This document shows positions 9,950-23,751 of a stretch of 33,551 bases of DNA, piece by piece (position 1 is the stretch's first letter; each line of letters starts with the position of its first letter). A program made the position numbers and the translations under genes. This DNA is from Candidatus Galligastranaerophilus intestinavium (GTDB lineage: Bacteria > Cyanobacteriota > Vampirovibrionia > Gastranaerophilales > Gastranaerophilaceae), in assembly GCA_018716625.1 (NCBI GenBank), contig DVJQ01000074.1:1-33551 (forward strand), written 5' to 3'. The notes under the pieces were generated by a model. It saw only the letters and a program-made list of their open reading frames with translations. It had not been told where the DNA came from and searched no databases.

Positions 9950-12301
9950 ATGGAAACATCTGATTTTCAATTTAGTAATGAAATTATAGACAAAATAAAT
10001 TATTTTTACAACTCGTCAGATGAGCTATTGCTTTTATGCGGTTTTTCTGGTTGTGCAAAAAGTGAAATTCTAAACAAAACTTTAGAAAACCCCGACGAAA
10101 ATACTCTCGTCTTTAGGCATTTATGCTTTGAAAACACTACAATTGATGATTTTCTGCTAAATTTTTACGATTCTTTCAGAAAATTTTCTCTTGAGAAAAA
10201 AGTCAGTCTTAAAAAAACAATGGGAGAAAGTTTTAAAAATAAAGTCAGCTTTTATTTTAAAAATATAAACAAAAAATGCATTATTGTAATTGACAATTTT
10301 GAACTTGTAGAGAACAATGTCGAGATTTTAAATTTTTTATCACACATTGCAAGTTTTGAAAACACAAAGGTTGTACTCATTTCCAGAAACAATAATGTTG
10401 ACTTTTTTATTGAACAAAATCTGCCCTTGCAAATAATTGAAATACAACCGGACACAAAAGAAATCTTTAAAGAAAAAATTGAAAAAGAAAAAATCGAAAT
10501 AGACGAGAACACTCTTAATGAACTTTACGAACTCACAGAGGGGTGCAAACTATACTTGAGAATGGTTTTAAGATACTCACAAATAACGGGATTAAAGATA
10601 TCAGAACTTCTTTTAGAATTCAAAAAACGAAATGAACCCTTTAGCAATTTTGTGATTTTAAAACTCATTTCACTTGTTCCAAGTGCTTATTTTGCCATTT
10701 TAAAAAATTTATGTGCAATAAACCATGCCGTAAGTATTGATTTCATAAACAATTACAATCTCGGAGATACAAGGCAAATCGAATATCTTGAAAGAAATTA
10801 TCTTATATCAAGGGTAGATAACGAAATTATTTTGAGAAATTATTTCAAGGAATATTTTGTATCCACACTGTCACTTCAGGAAAAATACAAAATTTACTCA
10901 AGACTTGTTGAAATATACGAACAAGAGCTTTCAAAAAGTCCGCGCGACAGGATTTTAAGGCTATCAAGAGAAAGTATCAGAAAACAAGTTGAAATGGTAA
11001 AAAGAAATATTCCTTCTCTTGGCAAACAAACAAACATAAGCAGAGAAAACTTTTCCTACATCTCTCTTGCACAAGAAGGCTCAAACCCTTGGTTTAACAC
11101 AAAAGAAATAGAGCGCAAACAAAAGTATTTGGACAAAAAAAGAGAACTGCAAAACAAAAAACTCACCACAAAAAGAGAATTTATGAGCGAAGAAGATGCT
11201 CTTATGCTAAAAGAGTACAGAAGAAGAAAGTACGAGCAGGAAAAAATAGAGCGCATTGAAAACCAAGAGTTTAATTTTCTCGAAGAATTCAAAAAAGCAG
11301 ATGAGCTTGAGCAAAATTACCAATTTGCACAGGCAAATGAAATATTATCCAAACTAAAGAACAAAACAGACGACGAAAAAACCAAAATAGAAATTTTAGA
11401 GCACTTAGCACACAACAGTGAAAAAATGAACAACTACGAAAATGCTCTTAACTACTACACTCAGGTAAGCTCGCTGCATCTTTTAATTGGCGATTATGAA
11501 AAATATTTCAGAACAGTACTTGAAATTGCAAACCTATACAAGAATTTATACAGGTTTGCAAGCGCAAAAGAGGAATATCTCAAAATCATAAATTCCGATA
11601 AAATTTCCGATAATCGCATAAAAACAAGCGCTTATCTGGGATTAGGGGATATTTTTGAAAGCGAAAATTCTATAAACGAAGCGCTTAAATATTACAGACT
11701 CGCAGGAGATTTTGCAGACAAAAACGACATTTCCATGCTTTGTGAAATATACTACAAAACCGCAATATTATACGATGATATGCAAGATTTTAACAATGCT
11801 GCAGAATTCTATTTAAAAAATATAACAGCAAGCGACAATACTATTCAAAACAGGTGGTTTTCACAAAGCTGCATCAATTTAGGGCTTATTTATTCTTATC
11901 AAAATAACACCGATGAAGCAAAAAAATATATTTCATTGGCGCTTGAAAAAGACAGAAAAGAGAAAAACCCCTCAGGTATATATTTTGCAGCACGTGAGCT
12001 TTCAAAAATATATGAACATGAAAGCTTTGAGATTGCACAAGAATATATGCAAGAGGCGCTAAAATGTGCAAAAGACTTGCATGACGAATTTAAAGAAGCC
12101 TTTGCATATTTAGAATTGGGTGATTTGTATTATAATTTTAATCAGGACGAAGCTGCACTTGAGTGCTTCTTTATGGCAAAAACCGCTCTGGGGGCAAACA
12201 TTTTAGAGGAAAACGAACAAATTATTAATCAGAGAATAAATGATATGAAAATAAAAATGCTGCCCGCAGTTTTTAAAAAAATTGAGGAAAAATATGTTTA
12301 G
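9950..12301 (+). CDS. P-loop (STAND/AAA-like) ATPase with C-terminal TPR repeats
   Basis: A 783-aa protein. The N-terminal P-loop domain has Walker A GFSGCAKS (31-38) and a Walker B-like strand IIVIDNF (111-117), then an arginine-bearing VVLISRNN strand (141-148), as in STAND/AAA ATPases. A helical middle region leads to a highly charged, probably coiled-coil stretch (about 385-440). The remainder, about 445-770, is a series of TPR-like helical pairs with repeated ALNYY, EALKYYRLAG and EALECFF signatures. STAND proteins usually act as nucleotide-controlled switches whose TPRs sense a ligand or partner. No catalytic effector domain is visible, so the output is unknown. It overlaps rsmG by eight bases and probably shares its transcript. 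The start is ATG with no Shine-Dalgarno. Confidence 0.78.
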   Translation: METSDFQFSNEIIDKINYFYNSSDELLLLCGFSGCAKSEILNKTLENPDENTLVFRHLCFENTTIDDFLLNFYDSFRKFSLEKKVSLKKTMGESFKNKVSFYFKNINKKCIIVIDNFELVENNVEILNFLSHIASFENTKVVLISRNNNVDFFIEQNLPLQIIEIQPDTKEIFKEKIEKEKIEIDENTLNELYELTEGCKLYLRMVLRYSQITGLKISELLLEFKKRNEPFSNFVILKLISLVPSAYFAILKNLCAINHAVSIDFINNYNLGDTRQIEYLERNYLISRVDNEIILRNYFKEYFVSTLSLQEKYKIYSRLVEIYEQELSKSPRDRILRLSRESIRKQVEMVKRNIPSLGKQTNISRENFSYISLAQEGSNPWFNTKEIERKQKYLDKKRELQNKKLTTKREFMSEEDALMLKEYRRRKYEQEKIERIENQEFNFLEEFKKADELEQNYQFAQANEILSKLKNKTDDEKTKIEILEHLAHNSEKMNNYENALNYYTQVSSLHLLIGDYEKYFRTVLEIANLYKNLYRFASAKEEYLKIINSDKISDNRIKTSAYLGLGDIFESENSINEALKYYRLAGDFADKNDISMLCEIYYKTAILYDDMQDFNNAAEFYLKNITASDNTIQNRWFSQSCINLGLIYSYQNNTDEAKKYISLALEKDRKEKNPSGIYFAARELSKIYEHESFEIAQEYMQEALKCAKDLHDEFKEAFAYLELGDLYYNFNQDEAALECFFMAKTALGANILEENEQIINQRINDMKIKMLPAVFKKIEEKYV

Positions 12302-12923
12302 CGATAAAAACCTTGAACTTTTAAAAAATGAATTTAACATTGAACCAAACAAAAACACCGTTGAAAAATTAAACTTATGGCACAAGCTTTTTATCGAATA
12401 CAATTCACACACAAATCTTATGAGTGCAAATGACACAAAGGTTCTTTTTGAAAAACATGTTTTTGACTCGCTTGCAATTTTAAAATGGGATGAATTTAAC
12501 CCGAACAAAAAACAAAAAATCCTTGATGTCGGCACAGGCGGCGGTTTTCCATCCGTAATTCTTGCACTTTTTTTCCCTGAACTTGAAATTGTCGCAAACG
12601 ATTCCAGGATGAAAAAAATTAATTTTATCATAGACATAAAAGCGGAATTAGACATAAAAAATTTGAAAATTTCTTATGCAAGAATTGAAGACTTAGAGCC
12701 GCTAAACTGCGACATTGTTATATCTCGAGCAGTCGGTACAATTAAAAACGTCCTAAGACTTTCTAAAAAACACATAAAAGAGGGCGGATATTTTATAATT
12801 TACAAGTCAAAAACCCTTGAAGAAGAATTAGAGCAAATTAAAGACCACAAAGTGCAAATTGTCAGCTATAAGCTGCCTCTAAAGGAAAATTTTGAAAGAC
12901 ATCTTGCAATTATTAAACAATAG
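12294..12923 (+). CDS. rsmG: 16S rRNA (guanine-N7) methyltransferase RsmG
   Basis: This enzyme methylates N7 of G527 in 16S rRNA using S-adenosylmethionine. The SAM-binding motif ILDVGTGGGFPSV is the RsmG hallmark, and VISRAVG further along matches the family's conserved 'SRA' segment. I chose the ATG at 12294 (209 aa) over a TTG twelve bases upstream because GAGG at 12284-12287 sits six bases before the ATG. The start lies inside the end of the P-loop/TPR gene (ATGTTTAG, eight-base overlap), so translation of the two is probably coupled. The length is usual for the family. In many bacteria rsmG sits beside parAB; here it does not. Confidence 0.93.
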   Translation: MFSDKNLELLKNEFNIEPNKNTVEKLNLWHKLFIEYNSHTNLMSANDTKVLFEKHVFDSLAILKWDEFNPNKKQKILDVGTGGGFPSVILALFFPELEIVANDSRMKKINFIIDIKAELDIKNLKISYARIEDLEPLNCDIVISRAVGTIKNVLRLSKKHIKEGGYFIIYKSKTLEEELEQIKDHKVQIVSYKLPLKENFERHLAIIKQ

Positions 12924-12936
12924 TTTATAAGGAACA

Positions 12937-12942
12937 TATACT
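12937..12942 (+). promoter_or_regulatory. Possible -10 box upstream of the sigma-factor leader
   Basis: TATACT, 60 bases before the sigma-factor start. Transcription from here would begin near 12949 and include the whole inverted repeat that hides the ribosome binding site. No good -35 hexamer is visible, so this is tentative. Confidence 0.35.
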
Positions 12943-12954
12943 ATAAAACTTCGT

Positions 12955-12992
12955 CTATCCTCCAAAAGACTATACTTTATTTGGAGGAGTAG
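12955..12992 (+). promoter_or_regulatory. Hairpin sequestering the Shine-Dalgarno of the sigma-factor gene
   Basis: TCCTCCAAA (12958-12966) and TTTGGAGGA (12980-12988) are perfect reverse complements around a 13-base loop. With one bulged G (12989) the stem extends to 12 bp, pairing CTA (12955-12957) with TAG (12990-12992). The right arm contains essentially all of the GGAGGAG Shine-Dalgarno (12983-12989), seven bases before the TTG start at 12997. The loop contains TATACT (12971-12976); a promoter there would start near 12983 and yield mRNA lacking the left arm. It could equally be a DNA operator, being a dyad around a -10 box. It has no U-tract, so it is not a terminator. Confidence 0.65.
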
Positions 12993-12996
12993 TATT

Positions 12997-13932
12997 TTGG
13001 GTATTAATATTTGTGAGCATAAAGAAGATATATTATTAGAGAATTATTTGGAAGAAGAAGAGCAAGAGGAGATAAAAACTTTTTCCACTATTGCAAATAA
13101 AGATGAAATTTTGCAAATGTACTTAAAAGACATCGGGCGGGTAAAACTTTTGAACAGAAACTCTGAAATAGCACTTGGAAAAACAATAAAAGAAGGAAGC
13201 AGAAAAGAGGCACAAATTGCAAAGAAGAAACTTGTGCAGGCAAATTTAAGACTTGTAGTATCAATTGCCAAAAAATATACAGGTCAGGGGATTTTGTTTA
13301 TGGATCTTGTTCAGGAGGGGTCCTTAGGGTTGATTAAAGCAGCCCAAAGGTTTGATTATTCAAAAGGCTTTAAATTTTCAACCTATGCAACCTGGTGGAT
13401 AAAACAAACTATAATCCGCGCCATTGCTAACTCATCACGCTCAATCAGAATACCTGTGCATATGAGCGACAAAATAAGAATGTTGAAAAAAGCCATTGTA
13501 AAATTAAGCGTTCAAAAGGGCTCTGAGCCGACAGACGAGGAGTTGAGCGATTATTTAAAAATCGATGTAAAAAAAGTTAAATCAATAAAAAGAGCAATGA
13601 TAAAAGAGCCTGTAAGTCTTGATACACCTGTGGCTCAAGACTTATGCCTTGAGGATTATATATCGGATGATGAAAATAAACTGCCCGAGATAAGTACGGA
13701 AAAAGAATTTTTAAACAAAGATATAATAAGCATTTTAGACATTTTAAATCAGAAAGAGAGATTTATTATTTTAAACCGTTTTGGTTTAGGGGAGCGCAAA
13801 ACAAAAACCTTAGAGGAGTTGGGGAGGATTTTAGGCTTTTCAAAAGAGAGAATAAGGCAGATTGAAAATGAAGCACTAAAAAAACTAAGACGTTCTCAGG
13901 AGGCAAAAAGCTTAAAAGATTACTTGAGTTAG
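12997..13932 (+). CDS. RNA polymerase sigma-70 factor (group 1/2, RpoD/SigA-like)
   Basis: A 311-aa sigma factor of the primary/primary-like class. An acidic N-terminus is followed by region 1.2 (ILQMYLKDIGRVKLL), region 2 (ANLRLVVSIAKKYTGQGILF, DLVQEGSLGLIKA, FSTYATWWIKQTIIRAI), region 3 (RIPVHMSDKI and after) and region 4.2 (LEELGRILGFSKERIRQIE). All promoter-recognition parts are present, so it should read ordinary -10/-35 promoters. Large non-conserved RpoD insertions are absent. It starts at TTG with a strong GGAGGAG seven bases upstream, which is buried in a hairpin, suggesting post-transcriptional control. Whether it is the housekeeping sigma or a group 2 paralogue cannot be decided from this window. 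Confidence 0.9.
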   Translation: MGINICEHKEDILLENYLEEEEQEEIKTFSTIANKDEILQMYLKDIGRVKLLNRNSEIALGKTIKEGSRKEAQIAKKKLVQANLRLVVSIAKKYTGQGILFMDLVQEGSLGLIKAAQRFDYSKGFKFSTYATWWIKQTIIRAIANSSRSIRIPVHMSDKIRMLKKAIVKLSVQKGSEPTDEELSDYLKIDVKKVKSIKRAMIKEPVSLDTPVAQDLCLEDYISDDENKLPEISTEKEFLNKDIISILDILNQKERFIILNRFGLGERKTKTLEELGRILGFSKERIRQIENEALKKLRRSQEAKSLKDYLS

Positions 13933-18462: not shown

Positions 18463-19128
18463 TTACTTAACAACTCCCAAATCAAGCACTTCTTTTATTT
18501 TGTTTTTTATTATATTGTGTATTTCTTCTTTGCTTTTTGTGCCGTCAAGCTCAATAAAACCATACTCTTTTTCAAGTTTCTTGTACTCGTCAAGGCACCT
18601 TTTTTGATAAATTTCAAAACTCTTGTATATGTCTGTTGATAATCCTATATCACGACCTGATTCAAAATAATCCAGCCCGCCTGAAGCAATAAGTCTTTTT
18701 ATCAACAAATCGGGAGGCATTTTTAAATAAAACACCAAATCAGGCTCAGGAGCAAATTCGTAGAGCTTTTTAACCCAGTTTATATCATGACCTCGAACAG
18801 AGTCACGAACGTAAGCCGTATAAACGTATCTGTCCAAAAGCACGACAAAACCTGATTTTAGTGCGGGGATTATTACATTTTCAAGCCTGTCCGCGTAATC
18901 TGCCGCATACAAAAGTGAAAAAGTCGTGGTATTAAGTAAATTTTTCTCTTTAGCTTCGTTAATAAGTCCTGAAATAAGTCTTGAGGTTTTCCACTCGGAC
19001 ACAACACAACCGTAGCTCAATCCCTCGATAAAACCTTTAAGCATATTTACCTGAGTTGATTTTCCCGCGCCGTCCGTTCCTTCAATTACAACCAAAAGCC
19101 CGTCATAGCCATGTTTTTTATATGTCAT
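18463..19128 (-). CDS. Thymidylate-kinase-like P-loop kinase (downstream copy)
   Basis: A 221-aa kinase of the Tmk fold with Walker A GTDGAGKST (17-25) and the DRYVYTAYVRD motif near 99-109, in the position of the DR(Y/H) motif of dTMP kinases. It transfers a phosphate from ATP to a nucleotide or related acceptor. The REPGGT motif that follows the P-loop in true Tmk proteins is missing; WKTSRLIS is in its place (about 46-53), so dTMP is not an assured substrate. It overlaps its paralogue upstream by 11 bases and shares much of its sequence pattern (TFSLL, ADRLE, IIPALK, GF, DRYVYTA), so the two arose by tandem duplication. Confidence 0.75.
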   Translation of the reverse strand: MTYKKHGYDGLLVVIEGTDGAGKSTQVNMLKGFIEGLSYGCVVSEWKTSRLISGLINEAKEKNLLNTTTFSLLYAADYADRLENVIIPALKSGFVVLLDRYVYTAYVRDSVRGHDINWVKKLYEFAPEPDLVFYLKMPPDLLIKRLIASGGLDYFESGRDIGLSTDIYKSFEIYQKRCLDEYKKLEKEYGFIELDGTKSKEEIHNIIKNKIKEVLDLGVVK

Positions 19129-19813
19129 TTTCTTCCTCTTTAATTTCTATGCCGCGCTTTTTAAGCACATCAACCACCAATTTCCTAAAATATTGTTGTT
19201 TTTGATGAATTGTATCATTTGCATCAATCTGCACAAGGGAATACTCATCTATCATATTTTTATACTGTTCTATAACCCTGTTTTGAAAAATTACATAACT
19301 TTTATAGGGGTTATTGGACAATTTTAAATCCATGCCTGCCTCATAAAACTTTGGCTGGCGATTTGTACAAATTCTATCCAAAGAAACCTTTGCACTAACA
19401 TCAAAATACACCGTCAAGTCAGGCTTGATTGCAAAACCGTACATGTTTCTGACCCACTTGGGATCAACCTCGCGGGCAACGTCGCGGGCAAAAGCAGTGT
19501 AGACATATCTGTCTGCAAGCACTATAAACCCTGCTTTGAGCGCGGGTATGATTGTACGCTCAAGTCTGTCAGCAAAATCCACCGCATGCAAAAGCGAAAA
19601 AGTCCTGCCTGAGAGCAAATTTTTCTTTTTTGCACGTTTTGTCGTCTGGGAAATAAGCTCTGATGAGTTCCAAGTGGTTAAAATTACATCAAGATTTTTT
19701 GACTTTAGCCAACTGTACAATAAGTCAAGTTGAGTACTTTTGCCCGAACCGTCAATGCCTTCAACGCAAATCAGCACACCTTGCAGTTTATGGTCTTTTG
19801 AAAATCTTAACAT
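19118..19813 (-). CDS. Thymidylate-kinase-like P-loop kinase (upstream copy)
   Basis: A 231-aa paralogue of the next gene, with Walker A GIDGSGKST (19-27), TFSLLHAVDFADRLE (71-85) and DRYVYTAFARD (101-111). As in its partner, the REPGGT loop of authentic dTMP kinases is replaced, here by WNSSELIS. The start is ATG with AAGG a few bases before. The two genes overlap and are probably co-translated, which suggests a heteromer or two related substrates. One copy may still provide dTMP kinase activity for the cell; the sequence alone does not decide this. Confidence 0.75.
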   Translation of the reverse strand: MLRFSKDHKLQGVLICVEGIDGSGKSTQLDLLYSWLKSKNLDVILTTWNSSELISQTTKRAKKKNLLSGRTFSLLHAVDFADRLERTIIPALKAGFIVLADRYVYTAFARDVAREVDPKWVRNMYGFAIKPDLTVYFDVSAKVSLDRICTNRQPKFYEAGMDLKLSNNPYKSYVIFQNRVIEQYKNMIDEYSLVQIDANDTIHQKQQYFRKLVVDVLKKRGIEIKEEENDI

Positions 19814-21587: not shown

Positions 21588-22391
21588 ATGCAAAGGTTTT
21601 ATGAAAAAGACAATATAACGTTGTTTCAGGGCAACTGTATCGAGCTTTTAAATAAAGCGACACCGGAATCCGTTGATATGATTTTTGCCGATCCGCCGTA
21701 TATGTTATCTAACGGTGGGATTACATGTCACGCCGGCAAGGTAGTTTCAGTTAATAAAGGAAAGTGGGATGAGAGTAAAGGGATTGATGAGGATTTTGAA
21801 TTCCACAATAAATGGATAAAGGCTTGTAAAAGGGTTTTAAAACCAAACGGAACAATGTGGATTTCAGGAACTTATCATTCAATTTATGCTTGCGGCTTTG
21901 CTTTACAAAAAAACGGATTTAAAATTCTAAATGATATTTGTTGGTTTAAACCAAATGCATCACCAAATATGTCTTGCAGGTATTTTACGGCAAGCCATGA
22001 AACACTTTTGTGGGCAAAAATAGATAATAAAGAAAAACATACATTTAATTATGAGCTTATAAAAAATGGCGATTGGGGTGAAGATTTTATTAAAAAACCG
22101 GAAAAACAAATGCGCTCAGTCTGGGCAATAGGAACTCCTAAAAGCTATGAAAAAGAATTTGGAAAACACCCGACACAAAAACCCTTAGAATTGTTAAGGC
22201 GTATAATTTTAGCTTCAACAAATAAAGATGATTTAATTTTAGACCCTTTTACAGGAAGCTCAACAACTGGTATAATGGCTTTAGAGTTGGGAAGAAGATT
22301 TATTGGAATTGATTTAGAAAAAAAATATTTAGACCTTTCAATTAAAAGGTTTGAACAAGTATTTTCAAAGAAAGAAAAAGTATGGCAGTAG
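21588..22391 (+). CDS. DpnA-like DNA adenine methyltransferase (beta class)
   Basis: A 267-aa methyltransferase. MIFADPPYMLSNGG carries the catalytic DPPY (35-38), and HPTQKP (194-199) with ILDPFTGSSTTG (FTGSST 221-226) forms the SAM site; this DPPY-before-FxGxG order defines the beta class. From memory, the segments VVSVNKGKWD, NGTMWISGT and MSCRYFT closely resemble DpnA of the Streptococcus DpnII system, which methylates GATC in single-stranded as well as double-stranded DNA. It is the first gene of a three-gene cassette and overlaps the next methylase by ten bases. GATC specificity is inferred from the resemblance, not shown. Confidence 0.88.
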   Translation: MQRFYEKDNITLFQGNCIELLNKATPESVDMIFADPPYMLSNGGITCHAGKVVSVNKGKWDESKGIDEDFEFHNKWIKACKRVLKPNGTMWISGTYHSIYACGFALQKNGFKILNDICWFKPNASPNMSCRYFTASHETLLWAKIDNKEKHTFNYELIKNGDWGEDFIKKPEKQMRSVWAIGTPKSYEKEFGKHPTQKPLELLRRIILASTNKDDLILDPFTGSSTTGIMALELGRRFIGIDLEKKYLDLSIKRFEQVFSKKEKVWQ

Positions 22392-23221
22392 TTTTAGAAC
22401 AATTGAAAAATCAAACATATCCGATTGTTAAATGGGTTGGCGGAAAACGTCAGCTAATGTTTGAACTTCTTAAAAATATGCCAAAGTCTTACAACAGATA
22501 TTTTGAACCATTTATCGGTGGTGGTGCCCTGTTTTTTGAGTTGCAACCACAAAATGGCTACATTTCAGATATGAATAAGGAGTTAATAAATTTATATTTA
22601 ACTGTTCGTGATAATGTTTATGAATTAATTGCAGATCTAAATAAGCATGAAGTATCAAAAGAATATTTTTTAGAAATAAGAAATTTAGACAGAACTGAAA
22701 AATATTCAACACTTTCAAATGTAGAAAAGGCAAGTCGTTTTATATACTTAAATAGGACTTGTTTTAACGGATTATATAGAGTAAATTCTCAAGGACAATT
22801 TAATGTCCCATTTGGAAATTATAAAAATCCAAGAATTGTTGATGCTGATAATTTGATAAACTGTTCAAAATTACTTAAACATACAGAAATTAAATGTGCA
22901 GATTTTTCAGAGATTTTAGAGAAAGTCCAAAAAGGCGATTTTGTCTATTTTGACCCTCCTTATGTTCCATTAAATGAAACATCCAGTTTTACTTCATATA
23001 CAAAGGATGGTTTTGACATTGATATGCAGTTTAAGCTGAGAGAGGTTTGCGATGAATTAGATTCAAAAGGTGTTATGTTTATGCTTTCAAATTCTGATAC
23101 TAAATTAGTGAATGAATTATATGCAAATTATGAAATAAAAAAAGTTTTTGCTTCTCGGGCAGTAAACGCTAATGCTAATGGTAGAGGCAAAATTACAGAA
23201 GTTTTAGTGAGGAATTACTAA
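22382..23221 (+). CDS. DpnM-like Dam-family DNA adenine methyltransferase (GATC expected)
   Basis: A 279-aa D12-class methylase. KWVGGKRQL (17-25) and FEPFIGGGALFF (41-52) bind SAM, FNGLYRVNSQGQFNVPFGNY is the target-recognition core, and YFDPPYVPLNETSSFTSY carries DPPY at 191-194. These segments match what I recall of DpnM (YFDPPYIPLSETSAFTSYT, GLYRVNSKNQFNVPYG), so methylation of adenine in GATC is the best prediction. It starts with ATG inside the end of the preceding gene and ends as TAATG, one base overlapping the endonuclease start. Its job would be to protect the host genome from the nuclease encoded next. Confidence 0.9.
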   Translation: MAVVLEQLKNQTYPIVKWVGGKRQLMFELLKNMPKSYNRYFEPFIGGGALFFELQPQNGYISDMNKELINLYLTVRDNVYELIADLNKHEVSKEYFLEIRNLDRTEKYSTLSNVEKASRFIYLNRTCFNGLYRVNSQGQFNVPFGNYKNPRIVDADNLINCSKLLKHTEIKCADFSEILEKVQKGDFVYFDPPYVPLNETSSFTSYTKDGFDIDMQFKLREVCDELDSKGVMFMLSNSDTKLVNELYANYEIKKVFASRAVNANANGRGKITEVLVRNY

Positions 23222-23751
23222 TGATAAAAGATGGCATAGGTGGTGGTAATACAACAACAGGACTTGTATTTGAAAGTAAAGCTGATTTAAAAACACTTTT
23301 AAATGGTATAAAAAATTATAAAGTTGACGATAACAATAATGTCTTTTATAAAGATAAATTAGTGGGCATGATTTTTGTAAAATACGGATTATATAAATTT
23401 CTGGAAAAACAAAATGTAGATTGGAAAAATTATCTTTCAAAGAAATTATTACCAGACGATTCAATTTATGTAATTTTAAACAATACATTTTATATAATTG
23501 AATGCAAATATCAACAAGTTGGTGGTTCAGTAGACGAAAAATTACAAACTTGTGACTTTAAGAAAAAACAGTATAAAAGGCTTTTAGCATCTTTAAATTT
23601 TGAAGTCGAGTATATTTACATATTGAATGACTGGTTTAAAAAACCTGAATATAAAGATGTGCTGGCATATATTCATAGCGTGGGATGCGATTACTATTTC
23701 AACTATATACCGCTCAAAAGGCTTGGCTTGCCCATTTCAAACTTGAACTAA
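23221..23751 (+). CDS. Short PD-(D/E)XK restriction endonuclease of the cassette
   Basis: A 176-aa protein. A PDD (78-80) and a beta-hairpin lead to IIECK (92-96), the PD-(D/E)XK metal-binding pattern, followed by GGSVDEKLQTCDFKKKQY, a stretch seen in several Type II nucleases as I recall. The N-terminus GIGGGNTTTGLVFESK is glycine-rich. It is much shorter than DpnII or MboI (about 280 aa) and shows none of their signature text, although the methylases are DpnA- and DpnM-like. It is translationally coupled to the DpnM-like gene through TAATG. Cutting at unmethylated GATC is inferred from the partner enzymes only. Confidence 0.8.
   Translation: MIKDGIGGGNTTTGLVFESKADLKTLLNGIKNYKVDDNNNVFYKDKLVGMIFVKYGLYKFLEKQNVDWKNYLSKKLLPDDSIYVILNNTFYIIECKYQQVGGSVDEKLQTCDFKKKQYKRLLASLNFEVEYIYILNDWFKKPEYKDVLAYIHSVGCDYYFNYIPLKRLGLPISNLN

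Follow-up and report, generated by a model that had tools for sequence, protein, structure and literature searches.

RNA thermometers of the rpoH, fourU and ROSE types comprise a stem that hides a Shine-Dalgarno sequence, in the rpoH type that of a sigma factor gene, and the enterobacterial RNAs RybB, MicA and MicL are sigma-E-dependent small RNAs. Gastranaerophilales are an uncultured gut lineage, relatives of the cyanobacteria; a search of the open-access literature returned nothing on sigma factors in this order, nor anything dealing with Melainabacteria and their small RNAs and sigma factors.

Two other described systems bear on the locus reported here. In Streptomyces coelicolor, sigma-E, acting through the same type of motif as that described below, drives the sigma factor gene hrdD (PMC6767563), and an actinobacterial sigma-E controls sigB (PMC10012870). 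In bacteriophage T4, the long early transcripts of gene e are repressed approximately 100-fold, and transcripts initiated at the late promoter, which lack the 5' arm of the leader hairpin, are translated (PMC3014915). The same architecture characterises the T4 gene e (lysozyme), soc, 49 and I-TevI leaders (PMC3014915): the promoter resides in the DNA of the hairpin's 5' arm, the hairpin hides the ribosome binding site, and only RNA from the arm promoter is translated.

The window, a contig (C58) of 33,551 nucleotides forming part of a 1.76-Mb genome, carries a corresponding arrangement comprising the following features:

12297..12923, plus strand: rsmG (gidB), NCBIfam TIGR00138, E 1e-40
12931..12935, plus strand: ECF-type -35 element GGAAC, invariant in 15/15 genus members
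12952..12955, plus strand: ECF-type -10 element CGTC after a 16-nt spacer, invariant in 15/15 genus members
12958..12966, plus strand: hairpin left arm TCCTCCAAA, mostly 5' of the predicted start
12964, plus strand: predicted ECF-dependent transcription start, about +/-2 nt
12980..12988, plus strand: hairpin right arm TTTGGAGGA, covering the Shine-Dalgarno sequence
12983..12989, plus strand: Shine-Dalgarno sequence GGAGGAG, 7 nt 5' of the TTG (12997)
12997..13932, plus strand: group-2 (RpoD-like, alternative) sigma factor, 311 aa, TTG start

As with hrdD and sigB, an ECF sigma factor with a promoter of the GGAAC/CGTC or GGAAC/GTT type would here drive a primary-like sigma factor in a two-step cascade. 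Unlike hrdD, the present gene belongs to another phylum and is preceded by the motif in almost all genomes sampled from the order; furthermore, hrdD has several promoters, and the gene of the ECF sigma factor considered here as the putative activator has no such motif of its own.

The sigma factor gene and its ECF-type promoter

The product of the gene at 12997..13932 contains the Pfam domains Sigma70_r1_2, r2, r3 and r4, corresponding to regions 1.2, 2, 3 and 4. It scores below the cut-offs of the NCBIfam RpoD equivalog models, and a separate, longer canonical RpoD is encoded on contig C76; the combination of RpoD-like regions 1.2-4 with a separate primary sigma factor in the same genome therefore assigns the protein to group 2, the alternative sigma factors. 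A prior reading made from the sequence alone had taken it to be of primary type, which is correct in that it is primary-like, but not in the sense of its being the primary sigma factor. Besides the RpoD of C76, the genome encodes two more RpoD-like and two ECF sigma factors (C61 and C64), and two further sigma factors appear, on our own reading of their sequences, to be FliA/SigB-like. The TTG start, which may lower output, is kept in all 15 genus members, and ATG is called as the start in 80 of the 92 orthologues elsewhere in the family.

In region 2.4 (13381-13440), the window sigma factor reads WWIKQTIIRAI, compared with WWIRQAITRAI in RpoD. The position equivalent to T440 of Escherichia coli sigma-70, the reader of position -12, is occupied by isoleucine; since T440I reportedly changes -12 specificity, an altered -10 box may be recognised by the window sigma factor. 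Upstream of rsmG lies a gene (9950-12301) that may belong to the transcription unit reading into the sigma factor gene; its ATPase-like product of 783 aa is tetratricopeptide-like in its C-terminal part and shows weak similarity to the sensor kinase FimS. Elsewhere in the window, two diverged thymidylate-kinase-like genes lie side by side on the minus strand (18463-19813), and a pair of DNA methyltransferase-like genes, together with a small gene after them whose product may be a restriction endonuclease (21588-23751), resembles, by inspection, a DpnII-type restriction-modification set.

The rsmG stop codon is only 7 nt from the -35 element, too short a distance for a terminator, and on this basis the rsmG mRNA would continue into the sigma factor gene. 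Between the two genes lies GGAAC-N16-CGTC (12931-12955), of which the spacer and flanks vary across the 15 species of the genus whereas GGAAC and CGTC do not. Across the family, (GGAAC/GAAAC)-N15..17-CGTC was found 5' of the orthologue in 106 of 119 genomes, compared with an expectation of 0.25 from shuffled sequence, one match in reversed sequence and none on the opposite strand. The spacer was exactly 16 nt in 100 of 107 scored promoters, and several of the 13 family genomes lacking the motif contained what we read as near matches, e.g. GCAAC-N16-CGTC. In four other families of the order, GAAAC-N16-CGTC was located upstream of all nine orthologues at -107 to -466 from an aligned start that often lies inside the gene, some of these motifs being 270-470 nt before it; among the 21 other sigma hits, the motif was absent save for two incidental matches. 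In the promoters of S. coelicolor sigma-E, an AAC and a CGTC element are separated by almost the same distance (PMC6767563), and GGAAC is present in sigma-H and sigma-E promoters (PMC6411747, PMC10012870). With -35 and -10 elements at a fixed spacing, GGAAC-N16-CGTC is almost certainly an ECF-type promoter, and the solid result of these comparisons is an order-wide conserved promoter that would place the group-2 sigma factor under ECF-type control.

A scan of the strict GGAAC-N16-CGTC motif through its own genome returned only three matches, one of them coding, and the strict regulon is therefore very small. An equivalent scan for GAAAC-N16-CGTC in seven other genomes yielded, among 30 inspected loci, mostly coding matches; the others were the sigma factor promoter and an S41-protease-like gene in genome G021. 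At the latter locus (L383; G021:C3:238748), GAAACTTTTTTTATTTTATTTCGTC lies just 5' of a gene with a signal peptide whose product resembles, by inspection, a C-terminal processing protease (S41); a Pfam scan of the first 49 aa of this protein returned no match. An S41-protease-like gene behind the motif fits an envelope-stress regulon. A third recurrent GGAAC-N16-CGTC was observed just 3' of ispE in genus members (L174, L175, L270-L276, L278), where the contigs stop soon after the motif, as would fit a collapsed rRNA operon downstream.

A probable small RNA behind the same motif and the candidate ECF sigma factor

A conserved intergenic sequence on contig C60, with counterparts elsewhere, is likewise preceded by the motif within the genus:

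L038:1501-1610 (G000:C60:39026-39137): unannotated small RNA of roughly 50-90 nt with an ECF-type promoter
L251, L252, L254, L256, L257, L262, L263, L279-L308, L310-L350: further small RNA loci

Near the predicted 5' end is an invariant 16-nt core, ATGCCGTATTTGCTAC, the complement of which is AGTAGCAAATACGGCAT. When the core alone was used as the query, with the motif playing no part in the search, 32 of 382 genomes of the class matched. Thirty of these loci were examined, 29 being intergenic and one a coding match, and the promoter was present at all 29 intergenic sites, the core starting 10-14 nt past CGTC. A scan of named genomes returned 47 stretches, mostly from Gastranaerophilales, one Helicobacteraceae and one Pantoea record among them being likely chance matches. 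A stem resembling that of an intrinsic terminator followed the core in 43 of 44 distinct sequences, the stems differing yet remaining complementary (GGCTCAAAG/CTTTGAGCC, GGCCTTTGT/ACAAGGGCC, GGCCGG/CCGGCC and others). The core is invariant also at codon third positions, and a gene is made unlikely by the shortness and variability of the stretch; a small RNA is therefore the best reading. The occurrence of the same motif before this unrelated conserved unit supports the reading of the motif as a promoter, and the new small RNA would share the strict regulon with the group-2 sigma factor gene.

In being a short RNA with a conserved 5' segment, an intrinsic terminator and an ECF-type promoter, the predicted C60 transcript is like RybB, MicA and MicL; unlike them, it has no sequence relation to those RNAs, and a search of Rfam returned no match. 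Its predicted pairing with the sigma factor mRNA was best in G000 and G003 (P 0.01-0.04), and poor in most other genomes.

Both ECF sigma factors of the genome are widespread, that of C64 being present in 125 and that of C61 in 118 of 126 good genomes. The C64 gene is followed by one for a zf-HC2 protein, and such proteins are typical of ECF anti-sigma factors. The promoter is kept in several genomes with no C61 match (e.g. G029, G064, G074 and G096); it is also present in G065 (99% complete), which has no C64 match, a result that counts against C64. On balance, the C64 ECF sigma factor with its adjoining zinc-finger, anti-sigma-like protein is the best candidate for the sigma factor of this promoter, and quite likely the correct one. 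Self-regulation of the ECF genes through the motif was considered and rejected, the motif being absent upstream of either gene in the 60 loci inspected. A comparison of residues covarying with GGAAC versus GAAAC, which was confounded by phylogeny, did not identify the ECF partner.

The hairpin over the Shine-Dalgarno sequence

The sequence-only reading had drawn attention to a hairpin in this leader, and its structural particulars were confirmed: the perfect 9-bp stem of TCCTCCAAA (12958-12966) with TTTGGAGGA (12980-12988), its extension to 12 bp by CTA (12955-12957) and TAG (12990-12992) around a bulged G12989, the burial of GGAGGAG (12983-12989) seven bases from the TTG at 12997, and two TATACT boxes, at 12937-12942 and, within the loop, at 12971-12976.

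In the open complex of sigma-H, the ECF -10 triplet spans positions -11 to -9 (PMC6411747), which would place the start at about A12964, and the distance from CGTC to the small RNA core served as a second basis for this assignment. A12964 lies inside the left arm; an ECF-initiated mRNA would therefore lack that arm, save for an AAA representing all that is retained of it, and have its Shine-Dalgarno sequence exposed, while a read-through mRNA would form the hairpin. The T4-type disposition of promoter and start within the 5' arm is thus present in the sequence (CGTC ending at 12955, start at ~12964, arm at 12955-12966). In predicted foldings, the mean probability of an unpaired Shine-Dalgarno sequence was 0.04 for the read-through RNA versus 0.42 for RNA from 12964; that the short mRNA is open only in part, even in the model, counts against a silencer switch.

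Taken together, these observations suggest the following mechanism. An ECF-type sigma factor would switch on the sigma factor gene from GGAAC-N16-CGTC (12931-12955), and the RNA starting near A12964, with most of the left arm gone and its Shine-Dalgarno sequence largely free, would be translated. Read-through RNA from rsmG would include the left arm, form the hairpin and give rise to little sigma factor; much as in T4 gene e, the promoter DNA would double as an anti-Shine-Dalgarno code by which read-through is silenced. The group-2 sigma factor would then appear mainly upon firing of the ECF pathway. This combination of an ECF promoter as on switch and a hairpin silencing rsmG read-through is, as a whole, somewhat favoured over the alternatives. 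Sequence and conservation support the promoter and the fact that it overlaps the left arm; we infer where transcription starts, which ECF sigma factor acts there and that read-through is silenced. To the promoter result a read-through silencer would be a reasonable addition, and the chances that the hairpin acts as one in this clade seem about even. The parallel with T4 is limited in that the present case concerns a chromosomal sigma factor gene, an ECF-type rather than a phage-late promoter and a clade-specific hairpin; translation only of the arm-promoter RNA is here a prediction.

Conservation of the hairpin and rival readings

The strongest rival holds that the ECF promoter is real and the hairpin a by-product with no regulatory role, TCCA being kept for the promoter and the purine-rich TGGAGG as ribosome site, with the extra pairs added by drift. 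It has a substantial, if lesser, claim to be correct. Of the 15 congeners, two have the perfect hairpin, six a shorter one (at least 7 bp) and seven none, and TCCA is the sole invariant part of the left arm, both of which favour a by-product; against it, a stem of at least 7 bp occurs at the same place in eight related species. In an alignment of the 14 distinct leaders, 68% of cells were paired with many pairs broken, and two-sided changes did not exceed those in shuffles. The sequence-only reading had itself named, as one of two results that would tell against its proposal, loss of pairing in relatives without compensation, and such loss is what seven of the 15 congeners exhibit.

The hairpin alone (-11.9 kcal/mol) is more stable than expected (z -3.3), and the stability of the longer leader is not unusual (z -0.8). 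Shuffling of the upstream sequence around an unchanged Shine-Dalgarno sequence produced a stem of at least 9 bp on the latter in 0.4-0.8% of shuffles; it is thus unusual for a single gene, but several chance cases are expected among the genes of a 1.76-Mb genome, again in keeping with a by-product. The hairpin is real, but the conserved feature is the promoter, not the hairpin.

The principal evidence against a by-product comes from the wider family, in which it was asked whether the sequence 5' of the predicted start masks the Shine-Dalgarno sequence beyond expectation. Relative to shuffled upstream sequence, 43% of the 92 genomes outside the genus fell in the most masked 12%. Relative to upstream sequence swapped between genera, a control that retains the promoter architecture, the native sequence masked the site more in 24 of 33 genera (mean 1.4 kcal/mol; Wilcoxon p=0.0009). 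In a subset with a control window, the excess was confined to the Shine-Dalgarno site (p=0.018, versus 0.41 in coding sequence). A duplex-only masking score was not significant (p=0.06), a result favouring a by-product, and the start-codon window gave p=0.09. Roughly one quarter to one third of the genera exhibited the opposite direction. Since these tests were designed after the data had been seen, and genera are not fully independent, family-wide masking of the site in read-through RNA by upstream sequence is treated as suggestive, and extension of the same silencing principle across the family as a tentative proposal, rather doubtful at present.

An RNA thermometer or ligand-responsive leader, in which a single transcript carries a hairpin opened by heat, RNA or protein, was among the possibilities raised in the sequence-only reading and is very improbable. 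The stem does hide the Shine-Dalgarno sequence of a sigma factor gene, as in the rpoH, fourU and ROSE types, but it is neither conserved nor covarying, being absent from seven of 15 congeners; the predicted promoter would leave most of one arm outside the main transcript; and in most genomes, pairing between the small RNA of the same regulon and the sigma factor mRNA is predicted to be poor. Nothing supports opening by any of the three agents.

The same reading had proposed two sigma-70 promoters, represented by the two TATACT hexamers, of which one gives a long transcript that stays silent and the other a short one that is active. The logic of two such transcripts fits the ECF-type promoter; the promoters named do not, and this version is scarcely credible. 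Both hexamers exist, but the first lies inside the ECF spacer and varies or vanishes in congeners, the second is shared with the closest relative alone, no -35 element is recognisable by inspection at the right distance from either, and a start near 12983, as had been suggested in place of the ~12964 now predicted, would cut into the Shine-Dalgarno sequence. Equally remote is a DNA operator, the inverted repeat being a repressor or activator site: the repeat is a palindrome lying across the promoter start, but half of the genus has lost its symmetry and still retains the promoter, and the ribosome site accounts for one arm.

Returning to the favoured reading of an ECF promoter with a read-through-silencing hairpin, the locus could tentatively represent an order-wide chromosomal switch of the T4 gene e kind within a cascade from an envelope-stress ECF to a group-2 sigma factor, together with an ECF-driven small RNA family in several genera, although the complete picture is at present on the doubtful side. 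If the masking is true, it would illustrate a way in which a bacterial regulator gene can be shielded from continual read-through with no terminator. For the Gastranaerophilales, the outcome is a concrete proposal of a sigma cascade in two steps, comprising a defined promoter motif, a putative pair of ECF and anti-sigma factors, and a small RNA under the same control.
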